The notes under the pieces: generated by a model
What the model saw: the letters and a program-made list of their open reading frames with translations, nothing else
Told to the model about the DNA's origin: nothing
Database searches by the model: none
From: Emticicia sp. C21
Lineage (GTDB): Bacteria; Bacteroidota; Bacteroidia; Cytophagales; Spirosomataceae
Length of the DNA: 64,000 nucleotides
Reading direction: 5' to 3'
Assembly: GCF_003418935.1 (NCBI RefSeq)
Contig: NZ_QVMT01000001.1
Span: 536,063-600,062, forward strand
Shown: in pieces, positions 16,555-43,939 of the stretch
Numbering within the stretch: the first letter of the stretch is position 1
Layout: the number at the start of each line of letters is the position of its first letter
Made by a program: the position numbers and the translations under genes

Positions 16555-16572
16555 ATAAGTAAAAATACTCAA
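16555..16572. promoter_or_regulatory. 18-bp palindromic operator between cobA and the sensor kinase
   Basis: ATAAGTA-AAAA-TACTCAA, second copy of the 7-4-7 palindrome. The left half is perfect and the right half differs in the last base. It lies 167 bp from the cobA start and 123 bp from the kinase start, so it could serve both divergent genes and give autoregulation. The rest of the 305-bp gap is AT-rich and shows no gene; TACTTTTC near 16584 is a weak -7 candidate for the kinase. Confidence 0.5.
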
Positions 16573-16694
16573 TTTTATGAATGGTACTTTTCTGATAAAT
16601 AATAAAAAACTATCAAGAATCTACAAATGACGATTGGAAAAGGAAATTTTTTAAGTTAATTTTCTATGAAATCTAAGCTAAAGTACCCATAAAA

Positions 16695-18122
16695 ATGCTT
16701 ACACTCGAACAACAGGTTACCCAACGTCTGACCAGATTATATATTCTTGCCCTGACAGCGGTAGCCATACTTTCGATAGCCGGACAGGTACTCATACAGG
16801 AGTCTTTAGAAGATACCCTCAACGATGCGCATGTAGTAAATATAGCCGGAAGGCAACGTATGTTGAGCCAGCGATTATCAAAGATGGCTATCTTGCTAAC
16901 CAACACGGATAGATTTTCGGAAGAGGCCAGATTTTATCAGAAAGACTTTGGCGAGACATTGGCGCTCTGGAGCAAATGCCACGAAGGGTTTCTGAAAGGG
17001 AAACTGGAAGTTGAAAGGGAAGTGGGCGTAAAAAACTCTTCGAAAATTAATCAGATGCTCCATGAGTTGAATCCGGTCTTTCTGAAAATTAAAACACAAT
17101 TAGAGTTGATTCTGAATCATCAGGCTTCTGATAAGAAAAAAGTTTTAGAGGAAATACTGACAAATGAGCGGCTTTTTCTGAATAAGATGGACCTTATTGT
17201 GTTTCAATACGATTTAGAGTCGCACGAACGGGTTAACAGAGTACGTAACATCGAGTTGTTTTTGTTTGTTCTTACTATTTCTATATTACTATTAGAGGGA
17301 TTATTGATATTTAAACCACTGGCCGCCTATATTAAAGAGGTTATTAGTAAGTTAATAAATTCAGAAGAAGCACTACAACAAAAGAACCAGGAATTGAGTA
17401 TTTCTAATCAGAAATTGACTGAAATGCAAAGAGATTTGGTGAAGATTACAGAAGAAAAATATGAATTAGTGCGAAAGGAAGACAATGTACGTTCAAGTGC
17501 ATTAATGGAGGGGCAGGAAGAAGAACGCCGGAGATTATCAAGAGAATTGCATGATGGAATTGGGCAAATGCTTACTGGACTAAGACTCCATAGCGAAAAG
17601 CTGAAAAGCCTGCCCTTTGCCAATGATAAGCAAAGAAAGACTTTTGAAGAACATAGCAAACTGATCGAAGAAACGATAGAGGCTACACGAATGGTATCGT
17701 TCAACCTGATGCCACCTATTCTGACAGATTTTGGTCTTGGTGCAGCCATTCGCTTATTAACAGAATATACAAGCCAGACCAGTAATATACAGGTAAGCTA
17801 TGAGAGTAACTACGGACAAACGAGGCTGAATAGTAATCTGGAAGTCAACCTTTACAGAATAGCACAGGAGGCCTTGAATAATATGATAAAACATTCAAAA
17901 GCCACCGAAGCGAAAGTAGTTTTAAAGAAAAACAAAGCTGACATAGAATTGAATATCAGCGATAATGGTGTGGGATTTGACGAGAAATATGTAAAAAAAG
18001 AAACTATCATCAATAACGGACTACCCAATATGCAAACCCGTGTGCGCTTATTGGGTGGACAAATGGACATACAAGCGAAATCCGCAAAAGGAACCCGGAT
18101 AACCGTGAAAATCCCGAATTAA
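16695..18122 (+). CDS. NarX-like nitrate-sensor histidine kinase (PilJ/P-box type sensor, HisKA_3)
   Basis: A 475-residue membrane kinase. A first helix (about 15-34) and a second (about 187-206) bracket a periplasmic four-helix sensor of roughly 150 residues. The sensor begins NIAGRQRMLSQRLSK (residues 49-63), the motif shared by PilJ-type N-domains and by the P-box of NarX/NarQ. After a coiled coil comes HisKA_3 with the phospho-acceptor His286 in SRELHDGIGQML, then HATPase_c with NLYRIAQEALNNMIKHS and SDNGVGFDE. It ends 1 bp before the response regulator, so the two are translationally linked. Position inside the nitrate/nitrite gene set makes nitrate the probable signal (inference). Confidence 0.88.
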   Translation: MLTLEQQVTQRLTRLYILALTAVAILSIAGQVLIQESLEDTLNDAHVVNIAGRQRMLSQRLSKMAILLTNTDRFSEEARFYQKDFGETLALWSKCHEGFLKGKLEVEREVGVKNSSKINQMLHELNPVFLKIKTQLELILNHQASDKKKVLEEILTNERLFLNKMDLIVFQYDLESHERVNRVRNIELFLFVLTISILLLEGLLIFKPLAAYIKEVISKLINSEEALQQKNQELSISNQKLTEMQRDLVKITEEKYELVRKEDNVRSSALMEGQEEERRRLSRELHDGIGQMLTGLRLHSEKLKSLPFANDKQRKTFEEHSKLIEETIEATRMVSFNLMPPILTDFGLGAAIRLLTEYTSQTSNIQVSYESNYGQTRLNSNLEVNLYRIAQEALNNMIKHSKATEAKVVLKKNKADIELNISDNGVGFDEKYVKKETIINNGLPNMQTRVRLLGGQMDIQAKSAKGTRITVKIPN

Positions 18123-18123
18123 C

Positions 18124-18780
18124 ATGGCAAATAAAATTAAACTAATGATTGTAGACGACCACGCAGTGGTTCGTAAGGGAATTATTAACCTATTAGAAGA
18201 TGAGGAAAATATTGAAATTGTCGGTGAAGCCCCTGATGGCGTAGAAGCGCTGGAAGGCATCAAAGAGCTAAAACCCAATATTGTTTTACTCGATTTATCT
18301 ATGCCCAGAATGACAGGTTTTGAGGTAGCCAAAATTATCTCACAAAAGCATTCAGCAGTACGGTCTATTATTTTTTCAATGCACAACAATCAGGAATATA
18401 TGGTGCAGGCAGTAGAGAACGGAGCGATGGGATATTTACTGAAAGATACGAGCAAAGAAGAAATACTGAAAGCATTAGATACTGTAGCCAATGGCAATAA
18501 GTACTTCCCGCCTACTGTTTCGGCTATGATTATTGATGGGTTATTGAATCAAAAGAAAAGTGGAAGTTCAACTACAAAAAAAGAAACTTCAGCCATTGTC
18601 AATGCGCTTTCCAAACAAGAGAAAGTAATACTGAACTATATAGTGGAAGGATTAAATAGTCAGGAAATATCTGAGAAGCTCAAGCTGAGCGTCCGCACCG
18701 TTTCAAATCATCGGGCAAATATTTTGCGGAAGACGCAGGTGAAGAATACGGCAGAGTTGGTGCGATTGGCGGTGGAATAA
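18124..18780 (+). CDS. NarL/LuxR-family response regulator
   Basis: A 218-residue DNA-binding regulator. The receiver domain has Asp11-Asp12, the phospho-acceptor Asp57 (NIVLLDLSMPRMTG), Ser/Thr in FSMHNN and Lys in LLKDTSKEE. The C-terminal LuxR-type HTH (about 153-213) contains SKQEKVILNYIVEGLNSQEI and LSVRTVSNHRANILRK. It pairs with the kinase directly upstream. I infer that it binds the 18-bp palindromes at 15137, 16555 and 24496, because these have 7-base halves like NarL-family sites and occur only at the nitrate-related control regions I examined. It converges on the next gene with a 3-bp gap. Confidence 0.9.
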   Translation: MANKIKLMIVDDHAVVRKGIINLLEDEENIEIVGEAPDGVEALEGIKELKPNIVLLDLSMPRMTGFEVAKIISQKHSAVRSIIFSMHNNQEYMVQAVENGAMGYLLKDTSKEEILKALDTVANGNKYFPPTVSAMIIDGLLNQKKSGSSTTKKETSAIVNALSKQEKVILNYIVEGLNSQEISEKLKLSVRTVSNHRANILRKTQVKNTAELVRLAVE

Positions 18781-28063: not shown

Positions 28064-28877
28064 TTACGTAAAAATCGCACAGTAAATGAGATTAAAGTTA
28101 GAGCTATCCAATTTGCGGCTTTGGTTTCAAATCTGATCAATAATGCTTTAAAACTATCTAACAAGCGTTTGCCTGTTCAATAACACTCCGTCTCTTATAA
28201 AGTTTTTCATCAAAGTATTGATAGCTATCGTCGTATAATTCATTTTTTGAGTTTCTCGAATTTGTATCAATATTGGCTTCTATTCCTTTGTGTCTACAAA
28301 TTTGGCGAAACTCTTTACTATCGAATCCGGAATCAGTATTTAGAAACAACCCTTTTATATTTATTCCTGCATTCTTAAGCATTTGGCAAAGTTCTCCAAA
28401 TAATTCATTTATCTTGTATAAATCATGATGCCCTCCTGCCTGAGGGCTTGCACAAGCTATCATTTGCCCCTGATTATCAGCTAAATACAAAGTATTGGTT
28501 GTTTCTGAAGATTTTCTCCCTTGATAGCTTACTGCTTCTCCTCCTCGTTTGGCAGGGGTATGACTCCCGTCAAGTTGAATAGAGGATAAGTCCAAAAAGC
28601 AACGGTTTGAGGCTAAAACATTAAGCCAAACCTTTTTCCATGAGCCGTTCTTGACCCACTTACTGAAATGATAATACACCCCTTGCCAAGTCAAAATACG
28701 GCTACTGAAAAACTGATTTACCGGTAAAAATCTCCATTGGCAACCTGTCTTCAACCGATATAATATCGCCGAAACTATTTCTGTTAATAATTCAGCTTCA
28801 CATTCTTTGCCTCGTAAACCAATACTTAAATTTGGTAATATGTATCGCTCTATTGTACTTTTATCGCTGCGGCGAAC
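28045..28877 (-). pseudogene. IS5-family DDE transposase, frameshifted
   Basis: The main open part (28158 up to about 28877) begins with STIERYILPNLSIGLRGKE and contains the DDE-type segments SIQLDGSHTPAKRGG, NTDSGFDSKEF and RRSVIEQANA. The first Asp is in QLDGSHT and the catalytic Glu in VIEQ. It has no ATG and would need an alternative start. At 28161-28163 one base is missing. In the next frame the protein continues LDSFKALLIRFETKAANW and ends at TAA 28045-28047, as expected for this family. The copy is therefore dead, at least as annotated, unless a frameshift is programmed there. Terminal inverted repeats were not resolved. Confidence 0.8.
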
Positions 28878-30495: not shown

Positions 30496-31659
30496 CTAAT
30501 GCTTAACAAATATATTTATTGAGGAGGCTCTAACGATTAACTCTCCCCGAACCGATTGAGTAGTAGTATTGGGAGTATTTTTACTGTTAATATTTTCAAT
30601 AAGTAAATTAATCGCAGCTTCGCCTACTTTGTTTGGGAAATGATTAAAGACAGTAAGAGACGGTTCAAATAATTCGCATAGTATATCATCTCCAAAACCA
30701 ACAAATGCCATTTCTTCCGGAATTTTAACCTGTCTTTTTTTAGCTTCTACCATCATTTCTATGGCATTTCTTGAGAGCATAGCAAAGACTCCATCTGGTG
30801 GCTGCTGCATATTTATGAAATACTCAAATGCTTTTGATCCATCATTTTTATTCATTTCTGAATAATAGATATATTTCTCGTCTACTTCAATACCATATTT
30901 TTGAAGTGCCGCTTTATAGCCTTCAAGGCGAATCTGAGAGATATAAAACTTCTCTGGACCAAGCATAACTCCTATTTTCTGACACCCCTGAACAATTAAA
31001 TGTTCTACCAAGTCAAAACTTCCTTTAAAATCTTCATGAATTACCTTGGGTGTGTCTATTTCATTGCAAACTCTGTCAAAATGTACTATAGGAATACTTT
31101 TCGCTAACACATGCTCAATATGTTCAAAGGAAGTAGTTTCTTTAGAATGGCTTACTAATAATCCATCTACACGGCAGGCAATGAGTGTCTCTATATTTAG
31201 TTTTTCGACAGATTGAGATTCGCTGGAATGACAAACCATAATTCTGTAACCTGTATCAATAGCCACTTGCTGCATACTTGCTAAAGCTGTTGCAAAAAAA
31301 GGAAGCTCCACATTCGGAATCACCACACCAATAGTATTAGTCTTACCTTTATTCAGACTCTGAGCTAACAAATTAGGTCTGTAATCCAAGTCAATAGCCG
31401 CTTGCATAACCGCTTGTCTAGTAAAGGGACTTATATCAGCTTTGCCATTCAACGCTCTTGAAACAGTAGAAGCAGCAATACCCAAGTGCTTCGCCAGATC
31501 TACAATAGTAGCCTGGTTAGCTTTCTGAGGCAATTTGGCGTTTTCATTTTCCAAAATGAAATGGAAATTACACAGTTTACAAAAAAAGCGCTGTTTTCCT
31601 CTTAAAAAACCTGATCTTATTACCCCATCTACTGAATTACATTTAATACATTTTTGCAT
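30496..31659 (-). CDS. LacI-family regulator with N-terminal zinc ribbon
   Basis: A 387-residue transcription regulator. Residues 1-35 form a C4 zinc ribbon (C4-x2-C7 … C27-x2-C30) like those in transposase N-termini. A LacI HTH follows at 51-72 (TIVDLAKHLGIAASTVSRAL) with the hinge helix YRPNLLAQSLNKGKT. The periplasmic-binding-protein-like effector domain covers 107-387 (IGVVIPNVELPFFA, VDGLLVSHS, FVGFGDD). It should bind a sugar or sugar acid and control the divergent susCD operon. A 20-bp palindrome of LacI type lies between them. The usual LacI length is about 340, and the extra 45 residues are the ribbon. The start codon is chosen because the ribbon begins at residue 4. Confidence 0.92.
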   Translation of the reverse strand: MQKCIKCNSVDGVIRSGFLRGKQRFFCKLCNFHFILENENAKLPQKANQATIVDLAKHLGIAASTVSRALNGKADISPFTRQAVMQAAIDLDYRPNLLAQSLNKGKTNTIGVVIPNVELPFFATALASMQQVAIDTGYRIMVCHSSESQSVEKLNIETLIACRVDGLLVSHSKETTSFEHIEHVLAKSIPIVHFDRVCNEIDTPKVIHEDFKGSFDLVEHLIVQGCQKIGVMLGPEKFYISQIRLEGYKAALQKYGIEVDEKYIYYSEMNKNDGSKAFEYFINMQQPPDGVFAMLSRNAIEMMVEAKKRQVKIPEEMAFVGFGDDILCELFEPSLTVFNHFPNKVGEAAINLLIENINSKNTPNTTTQSVRGELIVRASSINIFVKH

Positions 31660-31870: not shown

Positions 31871-31953
31871 ATAATCTTATTTTTTCAATCAACCTGATTT
31901 TTTAGTATTCCAAGCATAAAAAATTGTACTTATCAAATAAAACTTCTACAAAA

Positions 31954-34900
31954 ATGAAACAGAATTACCCATTAAGAACTCATAGTTTTAAACAGAAAAT
32001 CTTATTATTACTACTATTCTTTAGCCCTTTAATGATTTTAGCACAGACCAGGTCAATAAGCGGGCGTGTAATAGGTGGAGCTTCCAAAGACCCTATGCCG
32101 GGAGTTGGTATTACGATTAAAGGTACTCAACGGGGAACTACCACAGATGCATCAGGAAACTTTAAGATTGATGCTTCTTCCGAAGAAACCCTGGTTTTTA
32201 GTTTTATCGGTTATTTAGCCCAGGAAATTAAAGTTGGCAACAGGTCGACAATTGAAGTAAACTTACTGGAGGATACCCAGGCATTGGAAGAGGTGGTGGT
32301 AACGGCCTTAGGTATCAAAAAAGATGCTAAAAAACTGGGCTATGCTACTTCTACGATTTCGGCAGAGGCCATTACAGAAAATCGTTCTCCTAATTTTATG
32401 AATACCCTGCAGGGCAAAATAGCCGGTGTAAATATTTCCGGCTTAGGTACAGGCCCTAATGGCACATCAAAAATCAGGATACGCGGGCAATCTTCCTTTG
32501 CAGGCCAGAATAACCCGCTGATTGTTATTAATGGGGTTCCTATTGATAATACCAACTTTGGTACAAATCCCAACAATGCGGGTGCTGATAATTCGATTGC
32601 TGTGAGAGGTGGCGGAAATACTTCTGATGGTGGTGATGGTTTATCGAGTGTAAATCCTGATGATATTGAAAGTATGACTGTGCTCAAAGGAGCCACCGCA
32701 GCGGCGTTGTATGGTTCGCGTGCAAAAGATGGTGTAATTATGATTACTACTAAAACCAAAGGCAGTGGACGTGGGATTGGCGTAAGTTTCAATTCAAATT
32801 ACACCAACGAAACACCTCTGGATTTTACAGATTTCCAGTACGAATATGGTCAGGGAGAAAATGGTGTCCGGCCTACTACGCCTAATCCTACTTCCGGCCA
32901 ATGGTCTTTTGGTGAGAAATTTCAGCCCGGTATGACACAGGTATTATTTGATGGGGTTACGGTTCCGTATGAGCCTGTATATAACAGAATCAGGAAATTC
33001 TTTAGAAATGGCTCGAATTTTACCAATACAATCAGTTTATCTGCCGGTGGCGACAAAGGTGGCTTTAACCTTTCGTTTGCCAATATGGATAGTAAAGGGA
33101 TTGTACCCAATAATACTTTCAGCCGCAAAACGGTTAACCTTGGTTTTGCTTATGATTTATCTAAAAAACTGAGCTTTTCGGGCAATGTAAATTATTCGAA
33201 CGAGTTCAACAAAAATCCTCCGAATATAGCCAATCAGGATAACTCTATTCCGACAGCGCTTTATAATATGGCCAACTCTATGCCTTTAGATTTGCTGGAC
33301 CAGAAGAAATATGATGCAGACGGAAACGAGTTTGTTTATTCAAGATTTAAGAATCGTACCAATCCTTACTGGGTACTGGCAGAACAGTTTCAGAACATTC
33401 GCCGCGACAGAATTTTTGGAAATATTACTGCCAAATATAACATTTTACCGTGGTTGTTCATTCAGGGACGTATCGGGCAGGATTTCTGGTCGCGTGACCA
33501 GGAATTCAATAATTTCCCGACGGGACATGCTTCATTAAGCCCTGCACCTGCCGGGTTTGTGAATGGGACATTTACACAGGAATCGAGAAGATTCAGAGAG
33601 ACCAATGCTGATGTATTGATTTCAGCAAGTAGAAAGTTCGGTGACTTTGGTGTGGATATTAATGCTGGGGGTAATCAGATGTATCGTCGTTCAGATCTGA
33701 ACAGTGTACTCGTTCAGGATTTTGTCGTAAGAGGCTTGTATACAGTCATGAATGGCCGGGTAAAAGACCCGATTTATGGTTTATCTGAGAGAGCTGTTAA
33801 CTCAATCTATGGGTCAGGGGAGTTATCTTATAAAGACTTTCTTTTTGTAAATGTTACTGCCAGAAACGACTGGTTTTCGACGCTTTCTCCCGAAAACAGA
33901 AGTATTCTTTATCCTTCAGTCTCAGGTAGTTTTGTATTCTCTCAGGCATTTAAATCCGCACCGAGCTGGTTGAACTTCGGAAAATTGCGAGTGGCCTATG
34001 CCGAAGTGGGTAGTGATACAGATGTAGCTCCTTATTCAAACAATCTGTTTTATGGGATCAATGCCAACTTGTTTCCTAATCCGTCGGGTGCCGCTCAACC
34101 AGTAGGTGGTTCGCAGGGCACAACAGTACCAAATGCTGGTTTAAGACCTATGCAAACGGCTGAGTCTGAAATTGGACTAGAGCTGAAATTATTTAAGAAT
34201 CGTGTGGGTCTTGATTTTGCTGCTTACAGAAAAATAACCAATGATCAGATTGTTTCTGCGCAGATTTCTGATGCCTCCGGTTTTATTAATACATTGATTA
34301 ATAGTGGCAAAAGCGAAAACAAAGGCGTTGAGTTCCTGCTTAATTTGGTGCCTTTAAGAACCAGAAATTTTCAGTGGGATCTGACATTTAATGGTTCTTA
34401 TAATATTACTAAAGTCTTAAGCTTACTGACCGATAAACCAGGTGAAAGAATCACGGTAGGTACGCACGTATTCAATGGAGAATTAAGACAGATAGTGGGC
34501 CAGGAAATGGCTCAGATTTATGGATTTGGTTATAAGAGAGACGAACAAGGCAGAAAAATATTCGGCACGGGTGGGCTTCCTATCCGTACACCAGACCTTA
34601 TATCGTTTGGAAGCGCTTTACCAAAATGGGTAGGTGGCATCAATAATTCATTTAATTACAAGGGCGTCAATCTTTCATTCCTGATCGATTTCAAATTGGG
34701 TAATAAGATGTTGTCAGGCACTAATTTCAACCTGATCAGAGAGGGTTTGCATAAAATTACTTTACAAGGCAGAGATGGTATCATAGGTGACGGAGTCAAC
34801 GAAAAGGGAGAACCAAATACAGTAAAAGCCAATATACAACCCTATTGGGAAATAGTAAGAACTGCTGCTTTGGTTGAACCGGTCATTTATAATGGGGGTT

Positions 34901-35139
34901 ACTGGAAACTACGCCAGATTACTGCCGGGTACGATTTTACTAGATTTTTACCTCAGAATTCTCCAATAAAAGCAGTGAAACTAAGCTTTGTGGCAAATAA
35001 TGTATTGATGTTAAAGAAATGGGTGCCTAATATAGATCCGGAGTCTTTTGGCTACTCTTCTGACAACCTTGTCGGCCTGGAGTCTACTGGTCTTCCTACA
35101 ACCCGAAGTCTAGGAGTCAATTTAAATGTTAAATTTTAA
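31954..35139 (+). CDS. SusC-like TonB-dependent outer-membrane transporter
   Basis: A 1061-residue importer. From the ATG at 31954: signal peptide KILLLLLFFSPLMILAQ, an N-terminal carboxypeptidase-D-like domain (SISGRVIGGASKDPMPGVGI), a TonB box region (LEEVVVTALGIKK), the plug with LQGKIAGVNISG and NPLIVINGVPID, and then the 22-strand barrel ending in TTRSLGVNLNVKF. It works with SusD to import oligosaccharides, here probably xylan or arabinoxylan fragments given the GH10, GH43 and GH51 neighbours. An upstream TTG at 31924 would add ten residues before the signal peptide and is unlikely. The stop codon overlaps the first possible ATG of susD (TAATG). Confidence 0.95.
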   Translation: MKQNYPLRTHSFKQKILLLLLFFSPLMILAQTRSISGRVIGGASKDPMPGVGITIKGTQRGTTTDASGNFKIDASSEETLVFSFIGYLAQEIKVGNRSTIEVNLLEDTQALEEVVVTALGIKKDAKKLGYATSTISAEAITENRSPNFMNTLQGKIAGVNISGLGTGPNGTSKIRIRGQSSFAGQNNPLIVINGVPIDNTNFGTNPNNAGADNSIAVRGGGNTSDGGDGLSSVNPDDIESMTVLKGATAAALYGSRAKDGVIMITTKTKGSGRGIGVSFNSNYTNETPLDFTDFQYEYGQGENGVRPTTPNPTSGQWSFGEKFQPGMTQVLFDGVTVPYEPVYNRIRKFFRNGSNFTNTISLSAGGDKGGFNLSFANMDSKGIVPNNTFSRKTVNLGFAYDLSKKLSFSGNVNYSNEFNKNPPNIANQDNSIPTALYNMANSMPLDLLDQKKYDADGNEFVYSRFKNRTNPYWVLAEQFQNIRRDRIFGNITAKYNILPWLFIQGRIGQDFWSRDQEFNNFPTGHASLSPAPAGFVNGTFTQESRRFRETNADVLISASRKFGDFGVDINAGGNQMYRRSDLNSVLVQDFVVRGLYTVMNGRVKDPIYGLSERAVNSIYGSGELSYKDFLFVNVTARNDWFSTLSPENRSILYPSVSGSFVFSQAFKSAPSWLNFGKLRVAYAEVGSDTDVAPYSNNLFYGINANLFPNPSGAAQPVGGSQGTTVPNAGLRPMQTAESEIGLELKLFKNRVGLDFAAYRKITNDQIVSAQISDASGFINTLINSGKSENKGVEFLLNLVPLRTRNFQWDLTFNGSYNITKVLSLLTDKPGERITVGTHVFNGELRQIVGQEMAQIYGFGYKRDEQGRKIFGTGGLPIRTPDLISFGSALPKWVGGINNSFNYKGVNLSFLIDFKLGNKMLSGTNFNLIREGLHKITLQGRDGIIGDGVNEKGEPNTVKANIQPYWEIVRTAALVEPVIYNGGYWKLRQITAGYDFTRFLPQNSPIKAVKLSFVANNVLMLKKWVPNIDPESFGYSSDNLVGLESTGLPTTRSLGVNLNVKF

Positions 35140-36671
35140 TGCTATCAAAAATGAAAAAAATATATAGTTATTTATTGATAAGCTTTTTTATTGTATTGGC
35201 TTCTTCGTGCGACAAAGGTTTTGATGAGCTGAATATCAATAAAACAGCAGCCACAGCCATTAATCCGGTATTTACATTCAATAATGCGTTGATTAATGCT
35301 TCTTTTCCGGCAGGGATTGTGCAATATGAAATGGGGATTGTTCAACAAATGGTAACACCCAATTCGGGAGTTGTTGCCGGAGCCAATTTTAACCAGGATA
35401 ATAGAGATGCCACGCAGCAAACATGGCAACGGTATTACAGAACAGTCGTATTGTATACAACCGATGTCATCAAAACAGTAAAAGATGTCCCTGCCAGAAG
35501 TAACCTGCTTAACATGGCCCGTATCTGGAAAGCTTATGCTTTTACTATCCTGACTGATACGTATGGTGATGTGCCTTACGCTCAGGCCGGTAAAGGTTTT
35601 ACAGATCAGATAGTGCTGCCAAAATATGATACGCAGCAAGCCATTTATACAGATATTATCAAAGAACTCACTGAAGCATCAGCCGCACTCGATGCAGCCA
35701 AAACGCGTGAAACAGCAGATATTTTATATGGTGGAGATATTGCTAAATGGAAGAAACTAGGCTACTCTTTGTTGTTGCGTGTAGGCATGAGACTAAGCAA
35801 AGTTGATGCGAATCTGGCAAAAGAAACGGTGCAAAAGGCCATTCAGGGAGGCGTATTCAGTTCGAATGCTGATAACGCTTTTATTAAACATGACGCCAAT
35901 TATGTGAATGGTGTGGGTCAGATGCTTAATTCTACCGAAGCTGCCAACTTCTTTCTGGCCGCTCCATTTGTAGATTACCTGAAGAAAACCAATGACCCGA
36001 GATTGAAGGCTATTGCTGTAAGGTATGTTGGGGCAGGTTCAGGTTCTGACCAGGTAGCTTCCAGAGCATCTACCGACCCTGCCATCCAGATAGGTATGCC
36101 TTTAGGGTATGATAATAATACTGTTAAAGCGCCTGCTGCTGCTGCAGGGCTGGCGAGCTTTTATGAATATAGCCAGGTTGACAGAACCCGTATGACCAAA
36201 GTAGCCAGTCCCATGTTTTTGGTTACTTATGCACAAACCCAATTGTTACTGGCCGAAGCCGTGCAAAGGGGCTGGGCAACTGGTTCGATAGAGGATTATT
36301 ATAAAAATGGTGTCAGGGCTCATATGGAGCAACTGGCTGCTTATGATGCCAATTCTACCATTGCCACAGAGGCCATAGATACTTACCTGAAAAACAACCC
36401 TTTTGATACTGCCAATGCTTTGGAGCAAATCAACACGCAGTATTGGGTTGCTTCTTTTTTAAATGGACCGGAAGCATTTGCGAATTTCAGAAGAAGTGGT
36501 TTTCCTAAGCTAATGCCCAATCCTTTTCCGGGAAAAAGTATTAAAGGAGAATTTATCAGAAGATTAACCTATCCGAATTCTGAGATTTCAGTTAATTCTG
36601 TTAATGTGAAGGAAGCCATTGGCAGACAAGGAAATGATGATCTGGATTCCAGAGTATGGTGGGATAAATAA
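35139..36671 (+). CDS. SusD-like nutrient-binding outer-membrane lipoprotein
   Basis: A 510-residue (or 506) lipoprotein partner of SusC. The lipobox is FIVLASSC, with the lipidated Cys 20 residues into the version starting at 35151. The mature part begins DKGFDELNINKTAATAINP, as in the SusD/RagB-like group often called SusD-like_2, with TPR-type helices (RIWKAYAFTILTDTYGDVPY). It binds the oligosaccharide at the cell surface and closes over the SusC barrel. The ATG at 35139 overlaps the susC stop codon and suggests translational coupling. The ATG at 35151 gives an equally good signal peptide. Confidence 0.93.
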   Translation: MLSKMKKIYSYLLISFFIVLASSCDKGFDELNINKTAATAINPVFTFNNALINASFPAGIVQYEMGIVQQMVTPNSGVVAGANFNQDNRDATQQTWQRYYRTVVLYTTDVIKTVKDVPARSNLLNMARIWKAYAFTILTDTYGDVPYAQAGKGFTDQIVLPKYDTQQAIYTDIIKELTEASAALDAAKTRETADILYGGDIAKWKKLGYSLLLRVGMRLSKVDANLAKETVQKAIQGGVFSSNADNAFIKHDANYVNGVGQMLNSTEAANFFLAAPFVDYLKKTNDPRLKAIAVRYVGAGSGSDQVASRASTDPAIQIGMPLGYDNNTVKAPAAAAGLASFYEYSQVDRTRMTKVASPMFLVTYAQTQLLLAEAVQRGWATGSIEDYYKNGVRAHMEQLAAYDANSTIATEAIDTYLKNNPFDTANALEQINTQYWVASFLNGPEAFANFRRSGFPKLMPNPFPGKSIKGEFIRRLTYPNSEISVNSVNVKEAIGRQGNDDLDSRVWWDK

Positions 36672-36932: not shown

Positions 36933-37886
36933 ATGAAATTAAAAGACTATTGGTACACATTGAGCATTATTCTGCTCGTTATACTTGGCTATAATTTTCC
37001 GGATACCTTCAGTAGTCTTTTCGGAGTTAAACTTAACACATTTATTAAACCCGTTTTACAGGTTATTATGCTGGGAATGGGGGCAACCATGACCATTGAT
37101 GATTTTGCGGAAGTTTTTAAATCTCCGCTTAAAGTACTGATAGGCCTGGTTTGTCATTTTACTATTATGCCTTTTTCAGGGCTGGCATTATCAAAAATTT
37201 TCAGTTTCCCGCCTGAAATTGCAGCCGGAATTATTCTAATAGGCAGTAGCCCCAGTGGGCTTGCCTCCAATGTAATGGCACTTATGGCCAGAGCAAACGT
37301 CGCACTGTCAGTTACTATTACTACTTTATCTACCCTGATGGCACCGATTATGACTCCTTTTCTGATGAAAGCTTTGGGAGGAGGCTTAATTGAAGTAGAA
37401 TTTTGGGCCATGTTCTGGGATATGTCTCAAATGGTGATTTTACCCATCATTCTGGGGCTGGCACTTTATAAAATAATGCCCAAGGTAATGGCCAGATTCA
37501 ATAAAATTCTGCCTGTTTTTTCCATGTTAGGTATTGCCTATGTGATACTTGTGGTGACTGCCAGTGGTGCCAATTCTCTCAGAACAGTCGGGTTATTGCT
37601 GGTCATTGTAGTAATCATTCATAATCTTTTTGGCTATACACTTGGTTATTTTTTCTCCCGATTGCTGAAATTCACAGAATCAGATGCACGTGCTATTTCT
37701 TTTGAGGTAGGTATGCAGAATGCCGGTCTGGCATCTGCTTTAGCCAATGAAATGGGGCGCATTGCTACGGTCGGTCTGGCTGCGGCAATTTTCGGGCCGG
37801 TAATGAATATTACAGGCTCAATGTTGGCAAATTTCTGGAGTAAACGCCCACCGAATGAGCAATCTCAAAAACAGACAAATGATTGA
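36933..37886 (+). CDS. Bile acid:sodium symporter (BASS/SBF) family transporter
   Basis: A 317-residue inner-membrane protein with about ten helices. Family-like segments are VIMLGMGATMTIDDFAEV (end of helix 2), LIGSSPSGLASNVMALMARA (crossing motif) and FEVGMQNAGLASALAN (second crossing motif with conserved Gln-Asn). Characterised bacterial and plant BASS proteins carry organic anions such as ketopantoate, pyruvate, glycolate and other 2-oxo acids with sodium. As the first gene of the group with RraA-like, enolase-superfamily and FAH-family enzymes, it probably moves a sugar acid or a 2-keto-3-deoxy acid (inference). The next start lies 33 bp downstream. Confidence 0.85.
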   Translation: MKLKDYWYTLSIILLVILGYNFPDTFSSLFGVKLNTFIKPVLQVIMLGMGATMTIDDFAEVFKSPLKVLIGLVCHFTIMPFSGLALSKIFSFPPEIAAGIILIGSSPSGLASNVMALMARANVALSVTITTLSTLMAPIMTPFLMKALGGGLIEVEFWAMFWDMSQMVILPIILGLALYKIMPKVMARFNKILPVFSMLGIAYVILVVTASGANSLRTVGLLLVIVVIIHNLFGYTLGYFFSRLLKFTESDARAISFEVGMQNAGLASALANEMGRIATVGLAAAIFGPVMNITGSMLANFWSKRPPNEQSQKQTND

Positions 37887-37919
37887 AACCAATTTAAAAC
37901 CCTATTCTCCCTGATAGCT

Positions 37920-38861
37920 ATGAAAAAAATTTATTTAGGTATTTTCCTTTTTTTAGGCATATCAAGCCTTCATGCCCAGCAAATTTCAAAAGAATACCTG
38001 CTACACCTTACCCGTGAATGGAAAGGCGAAAGATTTCCTGATGGCAGGCCTAAAGTGGATGATAAGCTTTTGAAACGTATGAAAAAAGTAACCCTGGAAG
38101 AGGCCTGGGCGGTATTGAGAAATCATAATTACAGATACCAGTTTGAAGGCAACTGGCAAACCATCAATCCTGATTCTGTACTGGTTGGTAGAGCCGTAAC
38201 AGCCATTTTTACCCCCGGACGACCAGATATACAAACGGCCATTGATGATAAAGGCCATGATAAAGACGGCCGTATCAAGTCGCAGAATGCCTGGCCTATT
38301 GATTTGCTGGTGAAAGGAGATGTGTATGTAGTTGACCAGTTTAATGCGTACGAAGACGGACCTACTATTGGTGATAATCTGGGTAACTCTATCTATGCCA
38401 AAACGGGCAATGGAATTGTATACGATGGAGCCGTCAGGGATTTAAGTGGGTTGAAAGAAATAGGCGGCTTTACTTCTTTTTACAGAAGCTATCATCCCTC
38501 CCATCATCTAAATGAAGCTAAAAGAGCTTTAAATACTACCCTAGTGGGTATCAATCAACCTACACGTATTGGTAATGCCACAGTAATGCCCGGCGATATT
38601 GTATTGGGGAGAGAAGGCGGAGTTGTGTTTATTCCTCCGCATTTAGCCGAAGAAGTAGTTAAAGTCTCTGAGGTAGTCAGGCTCCGTGATATGTTTGGGC
38701 ATCAAAGGCTCCGTGAACAAAAATATACTCCGGGGCAGATTGATACCCGATGGTCGGATGAAATTGAGAAAGACTTCTCTCAATGGCTCCGCGAGCATAT
38801 TAATAAATTACCGGTTGACCCGGCTCAGATTCAGGAAATTCTGAAACAAAGAACCTGGTAA
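37920..38861 (+). CDS. Exported RraA-like protein (aldolase/decarboxylase-type fold)
   Basis: A 313-residue protein with a clear signal peptide (MKKIYLGIFLFLGISSLHAQ). The RraA/HMG-aldolase-like fold is marked by GDNLGNSIYAKTGNGIVYDG followed by the conserved R-D (AVRDLSGL, near residues 178-186) and GDIVLGREGGVVFIPP near residue 230. Cytoplasmic relatives are metal-dependent 4-hydroxy-4-methyl-2-oxoglutarate aldolases, oxaloacetate decarboxylases or RNase E inhibitors. Export is unusual for this family. With its neighbours it could act on a periplasmic keto-deoxy sugar acid. The enzymatic reaction is unproven. Confidence 0.75.
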   Translation: MKKIYLGIFLFLGISSLHAQQISKEYLLHLTREWKGERFPDGRPKVDDKLLKRMKKVTLEEAWAVLRNHNYRYQFEGNWQTINPDSVLVGRAVTAIFTPGRPDIQTAIDDKGHDKDGRIKSQNAWPIDLLVKGDVYVVDQFNAYEDGPTIGDNLGNSIYAKTGNGIVYDGAVRDLSGLKEIGGFTSFYRSYHPSHHLNEAKRALNTTLVGINQPTRIGNATVMPGDIVLGREGGVVFIPPHLAEEVVKVSEVVRLRDMFGHQRLREQKYTPGQIDTRWSDEIEKDFSQWLREHINKLPVDPAQIQEILKQRTW

Positions 38862-38930
38862 TTGAGACTTCCATTTTTAATGCATTTGTATTCAACCTGA
38901 GGACAGACCCTCTAAAACCTTTATACTTCA

Positions 38931-40205
38931 GTGAACAGAAGAAACTTTTTCCAGAAAGCAGCCGTAAGCTCTGCCTTGGCTGCCACTTCATTTTCAACTT
39001 TCGGGAATGAATATATAAACGCCATTGATAGAGCCCCTAAAAGTTCGGCGCCATCTGATTTAAAAATAACCGATATTAAGGCAGGATATATTCGTGGCGG
39101 ACATAGTTTATTTGTAAAAATTTACACCAATCAAGGGATTATCGGGCATGGTGAGGGAGTAGATGCCACCCCCGGCACCTATCATCTGGTTAAATCAATG
39201 GGCAGAAGGATTCAGGGGCAAAATCCTCTGAACGTACATCGGTTGTTTGAAACCATCAGAAAATCAGGTTTTTTTGAAGGCGCCCAATCGGGTATGTTTG
39301 TGGCAGTACTGACAGCTGTTGAAACTGCGCTTTGGGATATTGCCGGAAAGGCTTTGGGAGTACCGGTTTATCAGCTTTTGGGTGGAAAATTCAGAGATAC
39401 AGTAAGAGTATATATGGATACCGCTCTTTATCAGAATCAGTTGCCCAAACCAGAAGATTTTGCCAAGGCTGCCCGTGAGGCCGTTGATATGGGTTTCACG
39501 GCTGTTAAGTTTGATTTAGACCAAGGCAATGACCCTAATAAATATGACCGTTTTAACTGGACAGCTAGTCCGGCCGAACTTCAACGAATGTATGACCAGA
39601 TGGCCGCAGCCAGGAAAGAGGTAGGTACTAAGATTGATATTTGTGCCGATATGCATGGCCGCTATGACGCTACCACAGGCGAAAGAGCAGCAAAATTACT
39701 TGAACCACTTGGATTAATGTGGTTGGAAGAACCAATCCCCGCCGAAAATACGGATGCGTATAAAAAAATAACGGCCTCTACCTCGACGCCTATTTGTGCG
39801 GGCGAAAATCACTATCTTACTTATGGCTTCAGACCATTACTTGAAAGCGGCGCGGTAGATATTATTATGCCTGATTTACAAAAATGCGGTGGCTTAGGCG
39901 AAGGTCAACGCATTGCTAATCTGGCCAACCTGTATTATGTGCCGTTTGCTCCACACATGGTTGCTTCTTATCTGGGAGCTATGGCTTGTGCCCATGTTTG
40001 TGCCTCTGTGCCTAATTTCATGATTATGGAATGGCAGATATATTTCCATAAAGACCCTATGTTTAAAGAAATTGTAACATTCAATGGTGAGATGGTTGAA
40101 AAAAATGGATTCATCAGAGTAAGAGATGAGCCGGGTATAGGTGTAGAAATCAATGAAGAAGGCATGAAAAAGTATGCTACGCCGGGTGTACCTTTCTTTG
40201 AATAA
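38931..40205 (+). CDS. Tat-signal mandelate racemase/enolase-superfamily sugar-acid dehydratase
   Basis: A 424-residue protein starting with GTG. The N-terminus [20 protein letters not shown] is a twin-arginine signal, so it is probably exported folded. The capping domain is at about 45-165 and the barrel follows. Metal ligands are the Asp of DICADMHGR, the Glu of WLEEPIP and the Glu of CAGENHYL; the D-x-H-G-R form resembles D-galactonate dehydratase. A further catalytic His is in PFAPHMVAS. Such enzymes dehydrate aldonates to 2-keto-3-deoxyaldonates. Xylonate or arabinonate would fit this locus (inference). The FAH-family gene follows after 38 bp. Confidence 0.85.
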
Positions 40206-40243
40206 TTATTTGCTTACATATAAACCAACTCTTTTATTACCTG

Positions 40244-41074
40244 ATGAAAATTTACAATACAACACTTGGCCCCTATCTTGAACACAACGAAAGTTTTTAT
40301 ACATATATAGAGTATACTTTTGATTCACTAATCAATCAACCGGATCTTTACGAGTTTCTTAATCAAACAATAGCTAACAAAACGCCTGAACAGCATTTCA
40401 ACCTGGAGGAAGTACTACTTCCTCCTATAGTTTCTCAGGAAGTCTGGGCATCGGGTGTTACTTATCTGCGTAGTAAAAATGCCAGAATGGAAGAGTCGAA
40501 AGATGCAGGTGGCGGAGATTTTTATGACCGTGTGTATGTTGCCGAGCGTCCTGAGATATTCTTTAAAGCAACTGCTGCCCGTACAGTAGGCCATCAACAG
40601 GGTGTAAAAATACGACGCGACTCTAAATGGAATGTACCGGAGCCAGAGTTGACACTCTTTGTCAATTCGCGTGGAGAGATTGCTGGCTACACCATTGGCA
40701 ATGATATGAGTTCGAGAGATATTGAAGGGGAAAACCCATTGTATCTGCCGCAGGCTAAATCTTATGACAAAAGTGCAGCCATTGGCCCTTGCATATTGGT
40801 TTTAGAACAACCGATTGCAAAAGAGACAGAAATTAAACTTGAAATCGAAAGAAACGGAGCTACTATTTTCTCACAAACTACTCAGTTAAGTCAGATGAAA
40901 AGAGCGTTTGATGAACTGGTCAGATATCTGACTTTCGATTGCACTTTTGCCAATGGCTGTTTTCTGATGACAGGCACAGGTATTGTTCCACCGGATAGTT
41001 TTACCCTGCTAAAGGGAGATACCATACATATTATGATAGAGGGAATCGGCACTTTAACGAATACGGTGGAATAG
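40244..41074 (+). CDS. FAH-family 2-keto-3-deoxypentonate dehydratase-like enzyme
   Basis: A 276-residue cytoplasmic protein with a C-terminal fumarylacetoacetate-hydrolase fold. The segments [46 protein letters not shown] (metal-binding Glu pair) and [18 protein letters not shown] closely follow the 2-keto-3-deoxy-D-arabinonate dehydratase of archaeal pentose oxidation. There it yields alpha-ketoglutarate semialdehyde. With the preceding dehydratase this makes a Weimberg-type route plausible. The semialdehyde dehydrogenase is not in the window. A strong terminator follows. Confidence 0.82.
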
Positions 41075-41139
41075 ATTATTTTTATTAGATAAGCATCATA
41101 GGTTAATTAAAAACGATAGTTTTGTTTCGCTAAGGTTGG

Positions 41140-41176
41140 TCTAACGTCTGTATATTACAGGCGTTAGATTTTGTTT
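41140..41176 (+). terminator. Intrinsic terminator after the FAH-family gene
   Basis: TCTAACGTCTGTA (41140-41152) pairs with TACAGGCGTTAGA (41156-41168) through a 3-nt loop, 13 pairs including one G-T. It is followed by TTTTGTTT. Confidence 0.92.
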
Positions 41177-41230
41177 CAAAGTTCTCATTCAGTATTTTCA
41201 GTTATTCATTCTACCATTAGCAACTAGTTT

Positions 41231-42334
41231 ATGAAAATTAAAATATGCATTCTCCTTGTTTGGGGCATTCTATTATTCTCAAACTTCACTAATCAGGTCA
41301 ATCATTACAAATTACAATCTTTAAAGAAAGCCTTTAAAAATGATTTTATGATTGGAACTGCCCTTAATTCATCGCAGATTGAAGAACGAAATCAGGTAGC
41401 TAATGACCTGATTGTACAACAGTTTAATGCTGCTACTCCTGAAAATGTCATGAAATCAGCCCTATTACACCCTAAATGGGATACTTTTGACTTTACGATG
41501 GCTGATAAACTGATAGCATTCGGCAATAAACATAATATAAGAATCAACGGACATACCCTTATCTGGCATAGCCAGTTACCCGGTTTTATGCGTCGTATCC
41601 AAAGCAGCGATTCAGTGAAAACCTTTTTTACAGACCATATTAAAACCGTTGCCTCCCACTACAAAGGGAAAGTATTTTCCTGGGATGTGGTAAACGAAGC
41701 CCTGAACGAAGATGGAACATTAAGAAACTCTGTATTTCTTCAAAAACTGGGAGAAAACTATGTTACAGAGGCCTTTCGCCTCACGCAAGAGGCATCACCC
41801 AACACCGAGTTATATTATAACGATTATAATAACGAACAGCCTGCTAAAAGAGCCGGATGTATCAGGCTGATTAAAAAGATTCAGCAAGCGGGTGTCCGGA
41901 TTGATGGTGTGGGTATTCAGGGGCATTGGCATCTTGGGAAAATACCATTCAAAGACATTGAAGAGAGCATTATTCAATATGCGGCATTAGGACTGAAAGT
42001 TATGATTACTGAATTAGATATTGAAATATTGCCACGCAATTTTCAGGGAGCAGATGTAGGTCAACGCATGACTAACAATGCGGAATCGAATCCCTATCCG
42101 AACGGACTACCCGATGAAATGCAAAAACAACTGGCGGATGATTATGAAGCGCTTTTCAAACTATTTCTGAAACATAAAGATAAGGTTACAAGAGTTACTT
42201 TCTGGGGAGTAAATGATGGCGATAGCTGGCTGAATAATTGGCCTATTCGCGGCCGAACCAACTATCCGCTACTCTTTGATAGAAATAACCAACCCAAGCC
42301 CGCTTATTTTAAAGTGATAGGGCTAAAAGAGTAA
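41231..42334 (+). CDS. GH10 endo-beta-1,4-xylanase
   Basis: A 367-residue exported enzyme. A short N-terminal hydrophobic segment (ICILLVWGILLFSNF) serves as signal or anchor. The (beta/alpha)8 barrel then has the acid/base Glu156 in WDVVNEAL and the nucleophile Glu261 in MITELDIE. Other family marks are GHTLIWHSQLPGF, YYNDYNNE, GIQGHWHL and WGVNDGDSWLNNWP. It cuts the xylan backbone. It has no carbohydrate-binding module. A terminator precedes it, so it probably has its own promoter in the 60 bp before the start. It lies between the oxidative pentose genes and a small secreted protein. Confidence 0.96.
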   Translation: MKIKICILLVWGILLFSNFTNQVNHYKLQSLKKAFKNDFMIGTALNSSQIEERNQVANDLIVQQFNAATPENVMKSALLHPKWDTFDFTMADKLIAFGNKHNIRINGHTLIWHSQLPGFMRRIQSSDSVKTFFTDHIKTVASHYKGKVFSWDVVNEALNEDGTLRNSVFLQKLGENYVTEAFRLTQEASPNTELYYNDYNNEQPAKRAGCIRLIKKIQQAGVRIDGVGIQGHWHLGKIPFKDIEESIIQYAALGLKVMITELDIEILPRNFQGADVGQRMTNNAESNPYPNGLPDEMQKQLADDYEALFKLFLKHKDKVTRVTFWGVNDGDSWLNNWPIRGRTNYPLLFDRNNQPKPAYFKVIGLKE

Positions 42335-42438
42335 GGATGAGCGCAAGATTTATTCTTACCTAAGTTATTGCAAATAAGGAACTTAAGACTTAAATTGTAT
42401 AAGTATTTACTTAATTATTCAACCAAAATTTATTCATT

Positions 42439-42777
42439 ATGAAACAGTTTTTAGTATTACTTCTATTCTTAGGCACCTTTACGGCCTTTGCACAAAATCC
42501 GATTGATGGCAATTGGAAGGGAACGCGCGAAACCGATAACGGTACTTTTGAAGTCAACTACACATTCAAAGTGGAAGGAAACGAATTGAAAGGTACTTGG
42601 AAAACACAGTTTGGAGAAGCCAAAATTGAAAACGGTAAAGTAGATGGCAAAAAAATCTCTTATAGCATTTCGTTTAATGACATGAAGATCAATAGCACAG
42701 GCGAGCTCATTAATGAGAATGAAATTGTGGTTAAAAACGAAAGAGGCGAAATGAAATTAAAGAGAGTGAAAGAATAA
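42439..42777 (+). CDS. Small secreted beta-rich protein
   Basis: A 112-residue protein with signal peptide MKQFLVLLLFLGTFTAFAQ. The mature domain of about 93 residues has alternating strands (GNWKGTRETDNGTFEVNYTF, GNELKGTWKTQFG, KISYSISFNDMKINSTGEL), suggesting a small lipocalin-like or beta-sandwich fold. I know no assigned function. Similar short domains are found beside or attached to glycoside hydrolases in Bacteroidota. It follows the xylanase by 104 bp and ends at a shared bidirectional terminator. Confidence 0.75.
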   Translation: MKQFLVLLLFLGTFTAFAQNPIDGNWKGTRETDNGTFEVNYTFKVEGNELKGTWKTQFGEAKIENGKVDGKKISYSISFNDMKINSTGELINENEIVVKNERGEMKLKRVKE

Positions 42778-42782
42778 AATAA

Positions 42783-42838
42783 AAAAGACCATCTTCTCAG
42801 TAATTTTCACTAGAGGGGATGGTCTTTTGCTATAATAA
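42783..42838. terminator. Bidirectional terminator between small secreted protein and MocA-like gene
   Basis: AAAAGACCATC (42783-42793) pairs with GATGGTCTTTT (42828-42838) around a 34-nt loop. The A-run on one side and T-run on the other let it work in both directions for two convergent units. Confidence 0.75.
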
Positions 42839-42850
42839 TGGGACATCAAT

Positions 42851-43939
42851 TTATGAAGAAATCTTCACTGTTCCTCCGCTCTTAGCTGCCTGATAGATAG
42901 CTTCTACTACTCTTATATCTCTCAATCCTTCTTCACCGGGCGCTATCAATTGTGTATTATTCATTAATGCCAGGCAATCTTCATCCAACTGTTTAGCTTG
43001 CTGGCTTTTGATTGGAAAATCAATCACTCCACCTGAATGGCTTCCTTTATTACCCCCATACGCCGAAAAAGGCTCCATTTTTAACCAGCCTTTCTCATAA
43101 TTGACTTGCAGGTAGTTCATATTAATGCCAAAACTGGTATGACAAGCTGCCACAGCGCCACTCGGAAACTGTAACTGAAACAGCATAGTTTCTTCTACTT
43201 CTTTGTATATCTCAGGGCGAATCACATGCGCCTGAGCAGTAACACTGATAGGCTCTTCACCCGTAGCCAGTCTTGCGCCCTGCAAGGCATAAACACCCAT
43301 GTCAGGCATACAACCACCGCCTAAAGCTTTTTTTTGTTTCCAATGCGTTGTGCGGCCATCTACATAGCCTGCGCCACAGGCAATCATCATGGGTTTACCA
43401 TATACCTTTTCTCTGCCGATACGCATATATTCCTGTGTATTGGGGTCATGCTGGCATCGGTAGCCAATGGCTAATTTCACTTTGTTATCTGCACAAGCTT
43501 TAATCATTGCTTTGCAATCGGCCACACTGGTAGCCATTGGTTTTTCGCAGAATACATGTTTACCTGCTTTTGCCGCCCTTACTACATATTCGCGGTGCAT
43601 ACTTGGTGGAAGCACCACATACACCACATCGATATCAGGGTTATTAGCTATAGAATCAAAATTCTGATAATTATAAATGTTTTTATCAGGTATATTATAT
43701 TTCTTTTTCCATTGTTCGGCTTTGGCAGGTGTACCTGTTACAATACCAGCCAGGTAACAATTTTGTGTCATCTGTAAGGCTGGAGCCAATAAGTCGGTAC
43801 TGTAATAACCCAGGCCAACCAGTGCAATACCCAGCTTGTCTTTCTTTTTGGCCAAACCGGCTAACAAAGTATGAGGAGAAAATAAGGTAGCAGCACTTCC
43901 GACTGCTAAAGATCTAATGGCATCACGTCGGGTAAACAT
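42851..43939 (-). CDS. Tat-signal Gfo/Idh/MocA family oxidoreductase (GFOR-like)
   Basis: A 362-residue protein with an N-terminal twin-arginine signal (FTRRDAIRSLAVGSAATL). The Rossmann NAD(P) site is IALVGLGYYSTDLLAPAL, VFCEKPMATS carries the family Glu-Lys-Pro, and GYRCQHDPN and GGCMPDMGVYAL lie in the substrate half. Glucose-fructose oxidoreductase is the known periplasmic member and keeps its NADP tightly bound; xylose dehydrogenases also occur in this superfamily. Last gene of the araBAD-transaldolase-SSS unit, 82 bp after the transporter. It may oxidise or reduce a pentose in the periplasm; the substrate is inference. Confidence 0.85.
   Translation of the reverse strand: MFTRRDAIRSLAVGSAATLFSPHTLLAGLAKKKDKLGIALVGLGYYSTDLLAPALQMTQNCYLAGIVTGTPAKAEQWKKKYNIPDKNIYNYQNFDSIANNPDIDVVYVVLPPSMHREYVVRAAKAGKHVFCEKPMATSVADCKAMIKACADNKVKLAIGYRCQHDPNTQEYMRIGREKVYGKPMMIACGAGYVDGRTTHWKQKKALGGGCMPDMGVYALQGARLATGEEPISVTAQAHVIRPEIYKEVEETMLFQLQFPSGAVAACHTSFGINMNYLQVNYEKGWLKMEPFSAYGGNKGSHSGGVIDFPIKSQQAKQLDEDCLALMNNTQLIAPGEEGLRDIRVVEAIYQAAKSGGTVKISS

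Follow-up and report, generated by a model that had tools for sequence, protein, structure and literature searches.

Introduction

How far can a bacterium take the breakdown of a sugar acid before anything crosses its inner membrane? The question is raised by a locus of Emticicia sp. C21, found in a stretch of 64,000 nucleotides (the window) on contig C1 of its genome (6.6 Mb). There, a BASS-family carrier, an RraA-fold protein (RraA1), an enolase-superfamily protein (Eno1) and an FAH-family protein are encoded in a row, and a GFO-type oxidoreductase is encoded further on. An earlier note, made from the sequence alone, had placed the four genes in this order, which gene calls, Pfam and NCBIfam confirm. 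It had read the locus as a route in which pentose is oxidised and dehydrated outside the cytoplasm, the product being imported and finished inside.

We consider a sugar-acid utilisation operon split across the inner membrane to be the best reading, with a probability of about 0.55. Sequence comparison establishes its core: RraA1 and Eno1 form a conserved pair, both bear export-type leaders, and a carrier and a leaderless enzyme resembling archaeal KdaD are probably encoded in the same operon. Gene order, leaders, catalytic-type residues that are kept, the pairing of RraA1 with Eno1 and the likeness of FAH to KdaD and of GFO to the aldose oxidoreductase AAOR can be read directly from the sequences.

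RraA1 and Eno1 form a conserved pair

Relatives of RraA1 were collected from public genomes and the best 80 of 497 were used for locus counts. Open reading frames (ORFs) in these relatives were called with a simple script, neighbours being genes with at most one ORF call between them; membership in a cluster asks for 35% identity over 60% of the length, so that remote members are missed. Eno1 adjoins RraA1 in 75 of the 80 relatives, on the same strand in 72, so that the co-occurrence in other genomes on which the earlier note had made its case depend is found. One of the five remaining loci stops at a contig end (L090), two are contigs of genomes that carry Eno1 on another contig (L095 and L107, of G136 and G054), and two have no Eno1 within the stretch (L067, L101), the last of them holding the second pair of this type, RraA2-Eno2. 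The relatives span many Bacteroidota, including Lacihabitans, Spirosoma, Larkinella, Chitinophaga, Niastella, Flavobacteriaceae, Prolixibacteraceae and others. Closest to home, Emticicia sp. 21SJ11W-3 (L032) has an RraA1 that shares 93% identity with that of the window. At one locus (L149), tandem Eno1-like copies (65% and 52%) were seen.

The pairing also holds at genome level. For 291 genomes of the order, RraA1 was counted at E below about 1e-130, together with G019 (interrupted by a stop) and G177 (57%, with Eno1 as its neighbour); the Eno1 count excludes G250 (34%, internal stops), FAH was counted at E <= 1e-30, and the lists were compiled by hand. Eno1 is present in 41 of 42 RraA1 genomes and RraA1 in every Eno1 genome (41/41). 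The lone RraA1 genome without Eno1 is G017, whose RraA1 lies 359 bases from a contig end. These counts, evaluated by a Fisher test without tree correction, suggest an association that is more than chance. FAH likewise goes with the pair at this level, since the family occurs in 41/41 Eno1 genomes vs 43/250 others and, outside the window's family, in 22/22 vs 17/223.

At the loci themselves, the constant unit is RraA1 plus Eno1 and not the whole row, because FAH is found at only 9 of the 80 and BASS at 38. The earlier note had treated the whole row as one pathway unit; this stands for the pair and falls short for FAH and BASS.

Export-type leaders

RraA1 begins with a Sec-type leader, MKKIYLGIFLFLGISSLHAQQIS, without a lipobox Cys. 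Leaders were measured by a simple script as the most hydrophobic N-terminal 12-mer. For RraA1 the median is 2.62 and the minimum 1.75 (n = 81), and all 81 proteins are predicted to carry a Sec signal peptide; in each of them QQ[IVL] follows the leader inside the first 110 residues. The medians for other proteins encoded at these loci are 1.09 (FAH, n = 10), 0.48 (aldehyde dehydrogenase, ALDH, n = 7), 0.75 (IlvD, n = 5), 1.26 (kinases, n = 10) and 1.10 (UxuA, n = 7). The script alone fails to separate the groups, because single rows overlap (one FAH at 1.96).

In Eno1, the sign of export would be a twin-arginine (Tat) motif. RRx[FI] is found near the N-terminus in 76/76 Eno1 and 27/28 Eno2, the exception being L080_0, which is truncated by a contig end (Eno2 counts of 28 take it in and counts of 27 omit it). 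R3, R4 and F6 are invariant in 20 aligned Eno1 and Eno2 rows, in two types that are just 35-37% identical and differ in the surrounding sequence; in Eno2 the motif sits some 20-45 residues in. The open frame of the window Eno1 is just 5 codons longer than the called gene (429 vs 424). With the conserved RRxF-type motif, an uncharged stretch (longest run, median 17) and TatC encoded in the genome, Eno1 has the features of a putative Tat substrate. RRx followed by a hydrophobic residue is also matched by one FAH row and one IlvD row. Elsewhere, proteins with an RRxF leader and 33-35% BLAST identity, over part of the length, to the mannonate dehydratase UxuA stand beside RraA2-Eno2 (L164, L165).

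RraA1 and Eno1 thus both seem to be exported, and the signal-type leaders that the earlier note had assigned to them prove conserved. That the leaders bring about no export, and that the enzymes belong to a plain cytoplasmic non-phosphorylative pathway, seems very improbable to us: the weak hydrophobic stretch in Eno1 and Eno2 would fit it, and it is opposed by the invariance of RRxF despite differing surroundings, by the distance of the Eno2 motif from the N-terminus and by the leader of RraA1, which the RraA-family enzyme FlDet and FlDet-like proteins do not have.

Predicted chemistry of the pair

In Eno1, D240, E266, E292 and H342 are invariant in 20 aligned rows, as in acid-sugar dehydratases; we take the three acidic residues to be metal ligands and H342 to be the barrel His. 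A D-x-H pattern, presumably a feature of dehydratases of the aldonate (galactonate/mannonate) type, is present in 76/76 Eno1 and in only 7/28 Eno2. The best NCBIfam model is that of galactonate dehydratase (PRK14017) and, since its score of 261.5 bits is under the cut-off of 311, Eno1 is not a member of the D-galactonate dehydratase model. A glucarate-type dehydratase was rejected as a candidate (24 bits vs 261). The closest solved structure, 2qq6 (9e-99), was deposited without a specific function.

RraA1 carries D-X20-R-D in 81/81 rows (25/28 in RraA2), with D152, R173 and D174 invariant in 21 aligned rows; we take this pattern to be the motif of RraA-fold class II pyruvate aldolases. The RraA1 model (pLDDT 85) matches the fold of the HMG/CHA aldolase 3noj at 9e-13 and 21% identity, behind 5ir2 (the best match), RraAS2 5x15 and 3k4i. 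PDB entry 5ir2, which also has the RraA fold, bears a title that speaks of novel cellulases from gut microbes. Most homologues of the HMG/CHA aldolase contain one of two motifs that serve metal binding and catalysis, which makes them likely class II pyruvate aldolases (PMC5065237). RraA1 shares with this aldolase the fold, the R-D pair and the D-X20-R-D pattern and differs in its low identity and in setting, as the aldolase takes its substrates from aromatic catabolism (PMC5065237). No aromatic-pathway family turned up in a Pfam scan of 20 neighbour proteins, a small sample, and a role of RraA1 as an aromatic CHA aldolase was dropped. So was a role as RNase E inhibitor, in view of the Sec-type leader and the D-X20-R-D residues.

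RraA1 could instead resemble FlDet (from the FlDet/FlDeg branch of Flavobacterium UMI-01), a 2-keto-3-deoxyglucarate dehydratase/decarboxylase that makes 2-ketoglutarate semialdehyde and is encoded beside a 2-ketoglutarate semialdehyde dehydrogenase (KGSADH) (PMC8563752). Xylan uronates would then be turned by Eno1 into a 2-keto-3-deoxy-aldarate or a similar acid, which RraA1 would dehydrate and decarboxylate to the semialdehyde in the periplasm, and FAH would be a parallel pentonate branch meeting there. The best family model of RraA1 is indeed that of the FlDet-like family (PRK08245, 89.7 bits; the CHA aldolase models reach 51 and 48), and one protein above its cut-off (L155, 237 aa) stands beside a KGSADH-like ALDH, as FlDet does. 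In addition, PRK12764, a model named for an FAH-family protein, matches RraA1 through its second half, as if both served one route, and the CE15, GH67 and UxuA neighbours described below would fit. Yet RraA1 remains well under the PRK08245 cut-off of 208, a family with above-cut-off members in 6/345 genomes, and FlDet-like rows are 24-27% identical to RraA1 and RraA2. The first Asp of D-X20-R-D, kept in every RraA1, is missing in 3 of 4 aligned FlDet-like rows, and the D-x-H pattern and the galactonate-type score of Eno1 do not suit an aldarate. FlDet itself has 237 residues and no leader, and it acted, among the acids tested, only on 2-keto-3-deoxyglucarate (PMC8563752). On balance we regard the FlDet-like alternative as rather unlikely, and an aldolase as favoured over it, though not strongly.

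The FAH enzyme and the cytoplasmic end of the route

The window FAH matches KdaD (2q18) at 6e-50 over residues 52-274, its first ~50 residues lying outside the match; the next solved FAH structure comes at 3e-16. E-P-E and a second motif stretch of KdaD, which we take to hold the FAH metal residues, are kept. The sequence is thus that of a KdaD-type member of the family, in agreement with the earlier note, which had called it ketodeoxypentonate dehydratase-like.

The rest of the genome holds, by similarity, further counterparts of the Weimberg pathway: an IlvD-like protein, two FAH proteins, a KGSADH-like enzyme, SMP-30 proteins and GFO. The second FAH gene is followed by a KGSADH-like ALDH gene (G000:C30:341355-343808). 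The IlvD/EDD dehydratase (C1:910989-912698) has no labelled sugar-acid gene adjoining it and is 70% identical to that of L047, which stands beside GntP, ALDH and FAH. Since this dehydratase is encoded too, FAH need not depend on exported Eno1 and may also be fed by a cytoplasmic supplier; the idea that FAH has no other source of substrate was rejected on the same ground. On another contig, an SMP-30 domain is encoded less than 5 kb from a second GFO, which is 49% identical to that of the window (G000:C29:258573-263298).

Gene neighbourhoods in relatives

Besides BASS and FAH, the 80 loci hold SusC (35), SusD (32), RraA2 (28), Eno2 (28), ALDH (7), UxuA (7), GH67 (6), SMP-30 (6), IlvD/EDD (5), GntP (5), CE15 (4), GH10 (1) and GFO (0). 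A KGSADH-like ALDH is also present at 7 of the 9 FAH loci. In four loci (L032, L041, L042, L060) FAH lies directly 3' of RraA1-Eno1 on the same strand, and ALDH comes next in L041 and L060. In L041/L147, RraA1-Eno1-FAH-ALDH stands opposite SusC-SusD-RraA2-Eno2-BASS on the other strand. The order in L060 is AraC, a gluconokinase-like kinase, SusC, SusD, BASS, RraA1, Eno1, FAH, ALDH, FSA, one ORF, araB, araD and araA; the kinase belongs to a cluster found at 10/80 loci and scores 428 bits against a gluconokinase cut-off of 648. Three loci (L047, L057, L094) have SusC, SusD, an SMP-30 gene, BASS, RraA1 and Eno1 facing GntP, IlvD/EDD, ALDH and FAH, the IlvD/EDD of L047 reaching 935 bits with PRK06131 (cut-off 539).

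In Spirosoma and Larkinella, CE15, UxuA, GH67 and SDR genes lie beside the pair in varying sets. Because of this company, glucuronate-derived acids are an equally good substrate for the pair as pentonates, which weakens the pentose reading of the earlier note.

The same loci bear on a further alternative, in which the exported pair and FAH are functionally unrelated: RraA1 and Eno1 would be a unit for the acids of glucuronoxylan (4-O-methylglucuronate-derived), and FAH, a duplicate of the general FAH-ALDH pair, would be in the operon by chance. The scarcity of FAH at the loci, the other FAH with ALDH elsewhere in the genome, the Spirosoma and Larkinella neighbours and the many loci that hold the pair with no SusC or BASS in the stretch are what one would then expect. 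Against it stand the four loci with FAH directly after the pair, the co-occurrence of Eno1 and FAH in all Eno1 genomes and the far closer match of FAH to KdaD than to the next solved FAH. We hold this alternative to be improbable as well.

Secreted RraA-like genes also adjoin BASS at loci with no enolase-family gene in the short stretch (L160, L161, L162, L169, L170, L181). These six loci may point to a broader theme of secreted RraA plus BASS in Bacteroidota. Two of them (L160, L170) also encode a neighbouring protein that, judged by eye, begins like an amidohydrolase.

The GFO oxidoreductase

The best solved matches of the window GFO are Caulobacter AAOR (5a02, 5e-81) and Zymomonas GFOR (1ofg, 2e-68). 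It has a Tat-type leader (MFTRRDAIRSLAVGSAATLF / MFTRRDAIRS) and a nucleotide loop, GLGYYST vs GLGYYAT, so that kinship, leader and loop make it a predicted AAOR/GFOR-type enzyme, as the earlier note had seen. AAOR has a Tat signal and tightly bound NADP, converts xylose and other aldoses to aldonolactones and alditols, and in yeast gave D-xylonate and xylitol from xylose (PMC4628093, PMC9795676). Its physiological role in Caulobacter is called unclear (PMC4628093).

The earlier note had GFO closing an araBAD operon. The gene does come after the SSF gene of an araB-araA-araD-FSA-SSF row on the minus strand; the tie to araBAD is not borne out. GFO occurs in 42/47 genomes of the family at E <= 1e-60, paralogues included. 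Among 20 GFO loci examined with 1.5 kb flanks, SSF lies beside GFO at the window locus alone (1/20), whereas SusC or Eno2 does so in 4/20, and BLAST labels show no ara genes in any of the wider stretches (L205-L212). The idea that GFO forms one unit with the araBAD row was accordingly rejected (SSF in 0/19 other loci). Contrary to the missing tie, L060 carries FSA, araB, araD and araA in a row with BASS-RraA1-Eno1-FAH-ALDH.

GFO of the window cluster is absent from the 80 RraA loci. Still, SusC, SusD, GFO, Eno2 and RraA2 occur together in L207 and L208, and in genome G010 (L206) GFO and RraA1-Eno1 are ~5 kb apart, separated by five ORF calls. In L211 GFO stands between another SusC/SusD pair and an esterase with GH10, the SusD-like protein before it having a start similar to that of the second SusD-like protein of L032. 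In G641 (L205), of the window's genus, no such locus gene is found near GFO in the fetched stretch. A link of GFO to the exported pair thus seems to hold in some relatives, and not via araBAD.

Proposed pathway

We infer the following route, split between periplasm and cytoplasm. SusC/SusD would bring a sugar acid or oligosaccharide, derived from xylan, into the periplasm, where Tat-exported Eno1 would dehydrate the aldonate to a 2-keto-3-deoxy acid. Acting in series with it, Sec-exported RraA1, of the class II pyruvate-aldolase type, would cleave part of this acid, most likely to pyruvate and an aldehyde, and BASS would carry the resulting 2-keto acid(s) into the cytoplasm. There, FAH would convert imported 2-keto-3-deoxy-D-pentonate to 2-ketoglutarate semialdehyde, and a KGSADH-like enzyme encoded elsewhere would oxidise the latter. 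Upstream, the Tat-type GFO, with bound NADP, may form an aldonolactone from xylose or another aldose.

Several observations weigh against this route. At least 42 loci have the pair without one partner or the other (FAH or BASS), many stretches being short, and the co-occurrence counts take no account of how closely the genomes are related. Eno1 has a weakly hydrophobic stretch (median 1.49) with no clear AxA site seen, and one FAH row overlaps the leader proteins. D-X20-R-D is missing from 3 RraA2 rows and from both RraA copies of L150, the best family model of RraA1 is FlDet-like, and FlDet showed no action on 2-keto-3-deoxygluconate (PMC8563752). A pentonate-dehydratase-like IlvD is encoded elsewhere in the genome. 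The neighbours of the pair range from CE15, UxuA and GH67 to GH20, GH92/alginate-lyase and glutaminase-like genes, and no single substrate fits them. Finally, RraA1, with its aldolase-type motif, and FAH may be rivals for a single keto acid. The earlier note had the keto acid or RraA-derived pyruvate imported, and the 'or' hides this competition. It would be eased if RraA1 preferred acids derived from hexonates and FAH those derived from pentonates. Taken as a whole, the interpretation of the earlier note is partly supported.

A pathway lying wholly outside the cytoplasm can also be imagined in Bacteroidota, and we think it doubtful. AAOR-like GFO with bound NADP would oxidise xylan sugars, a secreted lactonase would open the lactone, Tat dehydratases and Sec RraA aldolases would yield pyruvate and small aldehydes with no soluble redox cofactor involved, and BASS would import the end product only. 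The cell would then import acids, not sugars.

Layout of the window locus

The genes of the locus are collected in Table 1. Gaps of 33, 69 and 38 bases separate BASS, RraA1, Eno1 and FAH, all on the plus strand, and the four are on this basis a likely operon; wider gaps lie between SusD and BASS (261 bases) and between FAH and GH10, the latter gene being only loosely attached. GFO is a putative member of the unit.

Table 1. Genes of the Emticicia sp. C21 locus, in window coordinates
Feature	Position	Strand	Basis and remarks
LacI-family regulator	30496..31659	-	PF00356, PF13377; divergent from susC
SusC-like TonB-dependent importer	31924..35139	+	Gene call; same cluster in 35/80 relatives
SusD-like lipoprotein	35139..36671	+	Gene call; same cluster in 32/80 relatives
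BASS/SBF-family carrier	36933..37886	+	PF01758 2e-39; 3zux 5e-58; same cluster in 38/80 relatives
RraA1, RraA-fold protein with Sec-type leader	37920..38861	+	PF03737 2e-16; D152-X20-R173-D174
Eno1, enolase-superfamily acid-sugar dehydratase-like, RRxF Tat-type leader	38931..40205	+	PF13378 2e-60
FAH-family 2-keto-3-deoxy-D-pentonate dehydratase-like enzyme	40244..41074	+	PF01557 4e-23; 2q18 6e-50; no leader seen
GH10 xylanase	41231..42334	+	PF00331 6e-101; 156 bases past FAH; cluster in 1/80 relatives (L032)
GFO/AAOR-like oxidoreductase, Tat-type leader	42851..43939	-	5a02 5e-81

The closest NCBIfam model of the BASS carrier is PanS (ketopantoate/pantoate), at 235 bits, under the cut-off of 400. 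SusC-like sequences in four of the wider GFO stretches, from other genomes of the family, are 73-76% identical to the window SusC. The LacI regulator has an extra N-terminal CxxC...CxxC, zinc-ribbon-like, ahead of its helix-turn-helix, and L032 has a LacI of the same cluster in the equivalent position. L032 also carries a second, different SusC/SusD-like pair between FAH and GH10 (13660-18664), absent in the window. A fragment matching IS4/5-type transposase families lies at 28158-28754 of the window, between a nitrite-reductase-like gene and the LacI gene.

Relation to known systems

To our knowledge, oxidative non-phosphorylative pathways are described as cytoplasmic past the first oxidation. 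Searches on export of RraA or of enolase-family dehydratases, on a Weimberg route in the periplasm and on polysaccharide utilisation loci with RraA gave, among the matches listed from the open-licence PMC literature, no description of this gene set; given that scope, absence from print is not thereby shown.

By similarity, the genome has counterparts of the Weimberg and Dahms steps: aldose-1-oxidation (GFO), pentonate dehydration (Eno1, IlvD), 2-keto-3-deoxypentonate dehydration (FAH) and KGSADH (PMC9795676). The difference is one of place, as dehydration here seems to occur outside the cytoplasm, perhaps together with aldol cleavage and oxidation. It is also one of family: archaeal aldopentonate dehydratases are reported to belong typically to the enolase superfamily, and IlvD/EDD enzymes are named for the bacterial ones (PMC9795676), whereas the window Eno1 belongs to the enolase superfamily. 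GFO shares the Tat leader and fold of Caulobacter AAOR and Zymomonas GFOR (PMC4628093); it differs in its setting, which here is a xylan region and in some relatives includes SusC, SusD, Eno2 and RraA2 as neighbours, its activity being predicted.

Implications

The pair is easy to test, with two soluble enzymes and one carrier. If the split route is true in many Bacteroidota, sugar use by polymer degraders would include acids, not sugars, crossing the inner membrane. Secreted RraA-like proteins, exported enolase-family enzymes and the BASS carriers that adjoin them would thereby acquire a role, and enzymes of the AAOR type a physiological setting.

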